Source of the DNA: an uncultured Nitriliruptoraceae bacterium
GTDB lineage: Bacteria; Actinomycetota; Nitriliruptoria; Nitriliruptorales; Nitriliruptoraceae
DNA length: 51,202 nucleotides
NCBI GenBank assembly: GCA_913060655.1
Contig: CAJXTG010000008.1
Location: 1 to 51,202 of the forward strand
Direction: 5' to 3'
The notes beneath the pieces were generated by a model, which had not been told where the DNA came from, searched no databases, and worked only from the letters and a program-made list of their open reading frames with translations. The translations under genes and the position numbers were made by a program. The stretch's first letter is position 1, and every line of letters starts with the position of its first letter. Positions 40,134 to 41,676 of this stretch are shown here, in pieces.

Positions 40134-40140
40134 TCAGCGG
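40127..40140. other. palindrome spanning two abutting stop codons
   Basis: CCGCTGATCAGCGG is a perfect 14-bp palindrome. Its centre TGATCA is simultaneously the TGA of glyS and the TGA of the opposing small gene. It may form a short hairpin in both transcripts. Confidence 0.7.
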
Positions 40141-40409
40141 TCCGCCGGCCCCTCCCGGCGCTCCTCCAGCCGGCCGAGCCGCCGCTCCACGTCGCGCAGC
40201 GCCCGGAGCAGCGTGCTCGTCGCCGCCAGCAGCGCGGCGACCCCGAGGGTCGTGGTGAGCACCAGCACCGCGTCGACGACGTCGCCGGCCCGCAGCGCGA
40301 GGGTCGCCGCCCCCGCGCCGACCAGCGCGACGGCGTAGGCGACGATCAGCGCCGCCCGGCCGGCGACCCGGGTGGGGTCGCCCGGTCCGGGGTCCTCGGG
40401 ACGGTCCAT
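40134..40409 (-). CDS. small two-helix membrane protein
   Basis: 91 residues. Two hydrophobic helices (about residues 18-39 and 46-67) are followed by a charged coiled tail LLRALRDVERRLGRLEERRE. No family recognised. Coding is supported by placement: it fills the gap exactly between glyS and manA and has a leaderless-type promoter (TACGCT, 6 bases, ATG). Function is unknown. Confidence 0.6.
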   Translation of the reverse strand: MDRPEDPGPGDPTRVAGRAALIVAYAVALVGAGAATLALRAGDVVDAVLVLTTTLGVAALLAATSTLLRALRDVERRLGRLEERREGPADR

Positions 40410-40415
40410 CCGGCC

Positions 40416-40425
40416 AGCGTAGGCT
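40416..40425. promoter_or_regulatory. overlapping bidirectional leaderless promoter
   Basis: AGCGTAGGCT carries TACGCT on the minus strand (40416-40421) and TAGGCT on the plus strand (40420-40425), sharing the central TA. Each hexamer is followed by exactly 6 bases and an ATG (40409 on minus, 40432 on plus). The whole divergent gap is 22 bases. Confidence 0.6.
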
Positions 40426-40431
40426 CCCCCC

Positions 40432-41676
40432 ATGTCCAGCCCGTCCGCGCCGCCCCCGCCGACCGTGCGGCCGCTGCGCGGCCGGGTCGCCACCGCCGCA
40501 TGGGGCGCCCCGGCGCTCCTCGCCCCGTTCCTCACCCCCACGTCCGACCCGACGTCGGCCCCTACGTCCGACCGGGGCGAGGGGGAGCTCCCGGCGGCGG
40601 AGGTGTGGTTCGGCGCGCACCCGGCACGACCGTCGTCCGTCGCCGTCGGCCGCACGTCCGACCCCGACGGCCGCTGGGTCCCGGCGGATCGGCTCCCGGA
40701 GGCGGAGCGACCGCACGTGCTCGTCAAGCTCCTCGCCGCGGGCGGCCCGCTGTCCATCCAGGTGCATCCGGACGACGCGACCGCCGCCGCCCGGGCGCCC
40801 GAGGACCCGCTGGGGAAGCCGGAGCTGCTGCGTGCGCTCGGGCCGATGCGCATCCTGTGCGGGCTGCGTCCCGCGGCCGCGTCACGGGCGCTGCTGTCGC
40901 GTCTCGCGCCGGACGCGGTACCGCTGCTCGAGGCCCTCGGGCACGGGGACGACGGGCTCGCCGAGGCCGTCGCGCTCGTGCTGCGCGCGGACCGGACGGC
41001 CCGCGCGGCGCTGCTCGCCGCCGTCCTCGACGGCGCCCGCGCGCTGCTCGCCGAGCCGGAGCCGTCGGCGGCCGCCCCGGCGACGGCGACGGACGTCGCG
41101 ACGCGTCGGGCGGCGCGGCTCGCGCTCGACCTGCACGAACGGTTCCCCGACGACCCGGGCGTCGTCGTCGCCCTGCTGCTCGACGACGTCGACCTCGCCC
41201 CGGGGCAGCGGGTGTTCGTCGCCCCGGGCACGCCCCACGCCTACCTGTCCGGACTCGGCCTGGAGGTCATGGCGCCGTCCGACCAGGTCCTGCGCGGCGG
41301 GCTGACCGTCAAGCCCGTCGACGTCGACGGGTTCCTCGACGTCCTCGACGCCCGCGCGCCCGGCCTCCCCACCACCGCGACGCTGCCACGTCGGCTCGAC
41401 GGCACGGGCTGGCGCCGCCACGTCACCCCGACGGACGCGTTCGTCGTCGACGAGGCGGACGTCGACGGCGGACCGCTCGTCGTCGAACGCACCGGCGCCG
41501 CCGCCGGCCTGCTCGTCTGCGTCGCCGGGACGGTGCACGTGCGCGCCGGTGACGGCAGCGTCGCCGACGTGGAGGCCGGCGAGGGCGCGCTGCTCGCCCC
41601 GGGCGACGACCCCGTCGAGCTCGAGGGGCAGGGCGCCGTCGTCCATGCGGTGGGGCGTCAGCCCGGTGCGGGCTGA
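40432..41676 (+). CDS. manA: mannose-6-phosphate isomerase, class I
   Basis: 414 residues. Zinc-dependent interconversion of mannose-6-phosphate and fructose-6-phosphate. Zinc motif QVHPDD at about residue 110 within LLAAGGPLSIQVHPDD; further metal ligands in FVAPGTPHAYLSGLGLEVMA and the catalytic-site SDQVLRGGLTVKPVDVDGF. The N-terminal third includes a Thr-Ser-Asp-Pro repeat insertion (about residues 37-48) caused by a short DNA repeat. Leaderless start by promoter geometry. Its last 19 bases overlap the opposing M61 gene. Confidence 0.93.
   Translation: MSSPSAPPPPTVRPLRGRVATAAWGAPALLAPFLTPTSDPTSAPTSDRGEGELPAAEVWFGAHPARPSSVAVGRTSDPDGRWVPADRLPEAERPHVLVKLLAAGGPLSIQVHPDDATAAARAPEDPLGKPELLRALGPMRILCGLRPAAASRALLSRLAPDAVPLLEALGHGDDGLAEAVALVLRADRTARAALLAAVLDGARALLAEPEPSAAAPATATDVATRRAARLALDLHERFPDDPGVVVALLLDDVDLAPGQRVFVAPGTPHAYLSGLGLEVMAPSDQVLRGGLTVKPVDVDGFLDVLDARAPGLPTTATLPRRLDGTGWRRHVTPTDAFVVDEADVDGGPLVVERTGAAAGLLVCVAGTVHVRAGDGSVADVEAGEGALLAPGDDPVELEGQGAVVHAVGRQPGAG

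Follow-up and report, generated by a model that had tools for sequence, protein, structure and literature searches.

One shared TA step as a probable bidirectional promoter for two predicted leaderless genes, manA and a small membrane-protein gene

How can two divergent genes be transcribed when only 22 bp lie between their start codons? The question is raised by a locus in the 51,202-nt stretch of DNA analysed here (the window), part of a 1.67-Mb genome with a GC content of 75% from a reduced-genome genus. An earlier note on the window had read the intergenic DNA as two back-to-back -10 elements serving leaderless starts on both strands. The features of the locus, including those predicted, are as follows.

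40134..40409, minus strand: gene for a small predicted membrane protein of 91 aa, conserved across the family
40409, minus strand: predicted small-gene transcription start at the A of the ATG, leaderless, placed from the -10 spacing
40410..40431, no strand: intergenic region of 22 bp between the two divergent start codons
40416..40425, no strand: putative bidirectional -10 core AGCGTAGGCT, 10 bp, near-palindromic, 9/10 columns invariant in four congeneric genomes
40416..40421 (reads 40421-40416), minus strand: putative small-gene -10 hexamer TACGCT, conserved in congeners and family loci
40420..40425, plus strand: putative manA -10 hexamer TAGGCT, identical in 4/4 congeners and at the spacing to ATG seen across the genome
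40432, plus strand: predicted manA transcription start at the A of the ATG, leaderless, placed from the -10 spacing
40432..41676, plus strand: manA, mannose-6-phosphate isomerase class I, 414 aa (TIGR00218 1.2e-33, above cut-off; PF20511 1.2e-9)

The partner of manA is less readily named. Its 91-aa product has two hydrophobic stretches, as judged by eye, and no match in Pfam or NCBIfam, and relatives are found in 32 of 35 family genomes. Downstream of the small gene lies a convergent glyS, which adjoins it in many family loci.

Positions 40407-40434 read CAT-CCGGCC-AGCGTAGGCT-CCCCCC-ATG (28 bp), and the 22-bp stretch at 40410-40431, CCGGCCAGCGTAGGCTCCCCCC, is exactly as previously described. 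The TA step at 40420-40421 is common to TACGCT on the minus strand and TAGGCT on the plus strand, and each hexamer is followed by 6 nt and then its own ATG, beginning at 40409 on the minus strand and 40432 on the plus strand; the overlap and both spacings had been read correctly in the earlier note. On the manA side, -12T is 40420, -11A is 40421 and -7T is 40425. On both sides a TANNNT hexamer ends about 6-7 nt before a start codon, as in actinobacterial leaderless promoters, and the two predicted starts are 23 bp apart. No Shine-Dalgarno sequence lies at a usable distance from either ATG, the spacers being CCCCCC and GGCCGG; on the minus strand, GGGGGGAG is some 14 nt away from the ATG and upstream of the small gene's predicted start. 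A scan of 40250-40600 found no -35 consensus match on either side and no promoter-like site besides the core. A sigma-70 consensus promoter with a -35 element is rejected, as no -35 was found in that interval. The missing match is a point against a promoter here, although it is normal for the leaderless TANNNT type.

The best explanation, and a very probable one on the sequence evidence, is a bidirectional sigma-A promoter to which polymerase binds one way or the other and from which both mRNAs are leaderless; where the RNAs start, that sigma-A is the factor and that the two orientations exclude each other are predictions within it. The polymerase, carrying the housekeeping sigma factor, would recognise either TAGGCT or TACGCT, on opposite strands, and open the DNA at the shared TA. 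Either orientation would be used, never both at once, since hexamers that share a TA step could not be recognised both ways simultaneously; the -11A flipped out in one orientation would be the pairing partner of the other orientation's -12T. Each transcript would begin with the A of its ATG, about 7 nt past the hexamer, and two leaderless mRNAs would be translated, from manA on the plus strand and from the small membrane-protein gene on the minus strand. RNA polymerase also contacts some 20-25 bp further upstream of a promoter core, in the spacer and -35 zone, and at this locus such contacts must fall inside the opposite gene. The 22 bp that had been called the complete regulatory region are accordingly the full intergenic length, but the regulatory DNA is not strictly limited to them.

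Could such an arrangement be an accident of GC-rich DNA? The window holds four matches to TANNNT-N6-ATG where 0.30 are expected, a number reached in none of 100 shuffles, and two of the four belong to the manA/small-gene site itself. Counts for the whole genome come from pattern searches and from individual loci. The divergent pattern CAT-N6-ANNNTANNNT-N6-ATG is found once in the whole 1.67-Mb genome, where base composition predicts about 0.012. A chance arrangement of two hexamers combined with mis-assigned start codons might appeal on the grounds that a single locus was chosen after inspection and that alternative GTG starts are present within manA. It is nevertheless scarcely credible: with so low an expectation per genome, the layout is still conserved in congeners, and conservation of the core beside variable spacers already contradicts chance.

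Elsewhere in the genome the hexamers themselves are spaced as in leaderless promoters. TAGGCT with an ATG within 25 nt occurs at 19 genomic sites, nine of them at exactly 6 nt and three at 7 nt, so that 12/19 lie at the 6-7 nt distance of leaderless promoters; most of the remaining sites have a GGAG-type, Shine-Dalgarno-like purine run before the ATG. Across the four genomes of the genus, TACSCT-N6-ATG was counted 54 times against 9 in reversed controls, whereas CACSCT at the same spacing gave 18 against 15. Taken with the TAGGCT peak, these counts mark TA hexamers at leaderless distance as a genuine signal in these genomes. A second copy of AGCGTAGGCT lies at C1:59310-59319 of this genome (L096), between divergent frames, where one side is leaderless (a 238-aa frame) and on the other the start codon is more distant and preceded by a GGAAG run.

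Comparison within the genus covered four genomes, namely the present one (G000) and G001, G002 and G003. Between the same two genes, G000, G001 and G002 all have the exact 6-10-6 layout, and the cores of the latter two, read towards manA, are AGCGTAGGCT and AGCCTAGGCT, AGCCTAGGCT being that of G002. G003 has retained AGCGTAGGCT and the 6-nt spacing towards the small gene, and its manA appears to begin at a downstream GTG behind a Shine-Dalgarno-like GGAG; judged from these bases, the G003 manA message would carry a short leader, and the doubly leaderless state would not be universal. In all, the 6-nt spacing is present on both sides in three of the four genomes and on the small-gene side in all four. 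Loss of either hexamer among relatives had been named beforehand as the result that would speak against the proposal; instead, TAGGCT on the manA side is present in 4/4 congeners and the small-gene side is likewise kept in 4/4, as TACGCT in three and TAGGCT in one. When the four genomes are aligned towards manA, 9/10 core columns are invariant compared with 0/12 in the spacers (Fisher p=2e-5). Of the four-fold degenerate positions of glyS in these genomes, 36% are invariant, giving a neutral probability of 7e-4 for at least 9/10, and all four A/T positions in the core are invariant versus 0/5 A/T four-fold glyS sites of G000. The shared core is very likely real, because relatives keep it while the surrounding bases have changed, and by this comparison both hexamers appear to be under selection. 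Conservation and the genome-wide enrichment of leaderless spacing together lend support to the reading of the site as a bidirectional -10 element with leaderless starts.

A conserved near-palindrome might also be bound by something other than polymerase. If AGCNTANGCT were a transcription-factor operator placed between or over promoters, rather than a pair of -10 elements, the near-perfect 10-bp inverted repeat, which is perfect in G002, would be explained directly. An operator is very unlikely, as the same hexamers stand at leaderless distance upstream of many genes genome-wide, and in the symmetrical layouts elsewhere in the phylum TANNNT and its 6-nt distance are preserved but the NNN letters vary, a pattern that fits a -10 element and not a specific operator.

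Across the family, 28/30 loci have a hexamer with A at -11 (second position) and T at -7 (sixth position), 6-7 nt before the small-gene ATG. The -12 base is T in 4/4 genomes of this genus; in the sister-genus loci with 6-nt spacing it is C in 15/16, the remaining one having G. This T of the small gene pairs with the -11A of the manA promoter. In sister-genus genomes TACSCT was counted 159 times versus 78 in controls and CACSCT 136 versus 130, so TACSCT is used elsewhere in these genomes. A GGCACCCTG-like stretch is conserved 6-7 nt before the small-gene ATG in sister genera (L014-L038), with G at -14 in 16/16 and C at -12 in 15/16 sister-genus loci. This stretch may be another kind of promoter or a regulator site, although CACSCT is not enriched at that distance genome-wide.

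The family data bear on whether the promoter faces one way only, serving the small gene, with manA transcribed from elsewhere, for example from inside the small gene or by read-through, and the symmetry incidental. The small-gene hexamer is indeed kept at 6-7 nt family-wide where manA does not abut, and a TANNNT motif yields pseudo-symmetry easily. One-way transcription would, however, leave several observations without an explanation: the manA-side TAGGCT is identical in four congeners despite variable spacers, three of them have it 6 nt from the manA ATG, the -12T needed by the manA side is specific to the genus even though sister genera use TACSCT elsewhere, and 40250-40600 holds no other promoter-like site. 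A one-way promoter is therefore considered unlikely, although it is the alternative that comes closest to the bidirectional promoter favoured here.

How the bidirectional promoter may have arisen is suggested by gene order. Several sister genera likewise have manA and the small gene in divergent orientation, about 490-1030 bp apart and with another reading frame between; in one (L028) the distance is about 120 bp, without an intervening frame. The intervening frame, of about 150 aa (...LARLEDVL..PFDRAVPDL...), is conserved in L014, L015, L016, L019, L021 and L023 and absent from this genus. The ancestral, family-wide leaderless -10 of the small gene would have had C at -12; loss of the intervening frame would have brought manA next to the small gene, and a C-to-T change at -12 would have made the -10 bidirectional, so that the same element also drives manA. 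We infer this order (frame loss, -12 C-to-T) from related genomes, which are non-independent observations.

The layout is not confined to the family. The same 28-bp arrangement occurs between clear divergent genes in other Actinomycetota families, for example between an adenosine deaminase-like frame and a 131-aa cytidine deaminase-like frame (L054), between two short-chain-dehydrogenase-like frames (L049) and between a UvrD-like helicase and a 237-aa frame (L051), the names having been read by eye from N-terminal residues. In 66 Actinomycetota genomes, mostly of large-genome families (presumed GC-rich) and picked after a first phylum search, the layout was counted 36 times with 6-nt spacers versus 5 with 4-nt, 12 with 9-nt and 8 with 3-nt spacers. 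Coding-like frames flank both sides at 11/27 examined 6-nt loci, 0/5 at 4 nt and 6/12 at 9 nt. In an unselected phylum sample the contrast is weak, 143/396 genomes matching with 6-nt spacers versus 123/396 with 3-nt spacers, and genomes with the top counts are also high in controls.

Near-identical shared-TA layouts with 6-nt spacers were seen in pairs of related genomes (L073/L075, L094/L095 and G154:C13:147521/L066), which suggests further conserved sites. One match to the pattern, L042 (G064:C213:9471-9498), is a perfect 28-bp palindrome with GAACATATGTTC and probably matches for another reason; the palindrome resembles an SOS box.

It is tempting to go further and propose a distinct, recurrent class of Actinomycetota promoter, 22 bp long and divergent, with a TANNNT pair sharing its TA and both mRNAs leaderless, in which one melting step and an either-or orientation of polymerase control two genes and which a single C-to-T change at -12 can create in the course of genome reduction. 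This generalisation is tentative, and somewhat more doubtful than not.

If confirmed, the manA site would be a near-minimal divergent promoter: two start codons and two hexamers around a single TA step fit into 28 bp, with no space for a 5' leader or for an operator of its own. It would offer a clean natural test of whether either-or binding of polymerase couples two genes. It would equally be a natural test of the origin of bidirectional promoters, because the base that differs between genera, C or T at -12, is the one that provides the second promoter with its -11A. The simple sequence rule CAT-N6-ANNNTANNNT-N6-ATG would then serve to spot such pairs and correct start codons in GC-rich genomes.

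Bidirectional promoters have been defined by divergent starts 7-25 bp apart (PMC10268837) and most often have starts 18 bp apart, with 10 or 23 bp also common (PMC12825309); steric exclusion of two polymerases at such promoters is established (PMC12825309; PMC10268837). The manA site resembles those described by Warman, Grainger and colleagues (PMC12825309; PMC10268837) in its near-symmetric shared -10, which in their examples recruits polymerase either way, and its predicted 23-bp start spacing is one of the published common distances (10, 18, 23; PMC12825309). Their examples come from E. coli and Salmonella, with 18 bp the commonest spacing, whereas here the hexamers are GC-rich TANNNT elements and both mRNAs are predicted to be leaderless.

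In these latter respects the site resembles the leaderless TANNNT promoters of Actinobacteria (PMC3898074, PMC3160421), in which the hexamer stands 6-7 nt ahead of the start codon and both a -35 consensus and a Shine-Dalgarno sequence are lacking; in M. tuberculosis TANNNT -10 elements occur without a -35 consensus and a quarter of genes are leaderless (PMC3898074). Such promoters usually serve one gene each, while here one would serve two. The double leaderless pairing had been called unusual in the earlier note, a description now tempered by the recurrence of the layout in Actinomycetota and by a doubly leaderless divergent pair in M. tuberculosis (PMC3898074). That pair is Rv1129c / Rv1130 (prpD), whose starts were mapped to the start codons (PMC3898074, Figure 4D legend); the genes described here are likewise divergent neighbours, both predicted to be leaderless, and the text consulted does not state whether the -10 elements of Rv1129c / Rv1130 overlap in a shared TA. 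The portions of the literature on bidirectional promoters and leaderless mRNAs that were consulted hold no description of double leaderlessness with a single shared TA step, which is no proof of absence. Every ingredient of the site is already known in bacteria; what sets this well-supported variant apart is that a single shared TA step combines them.
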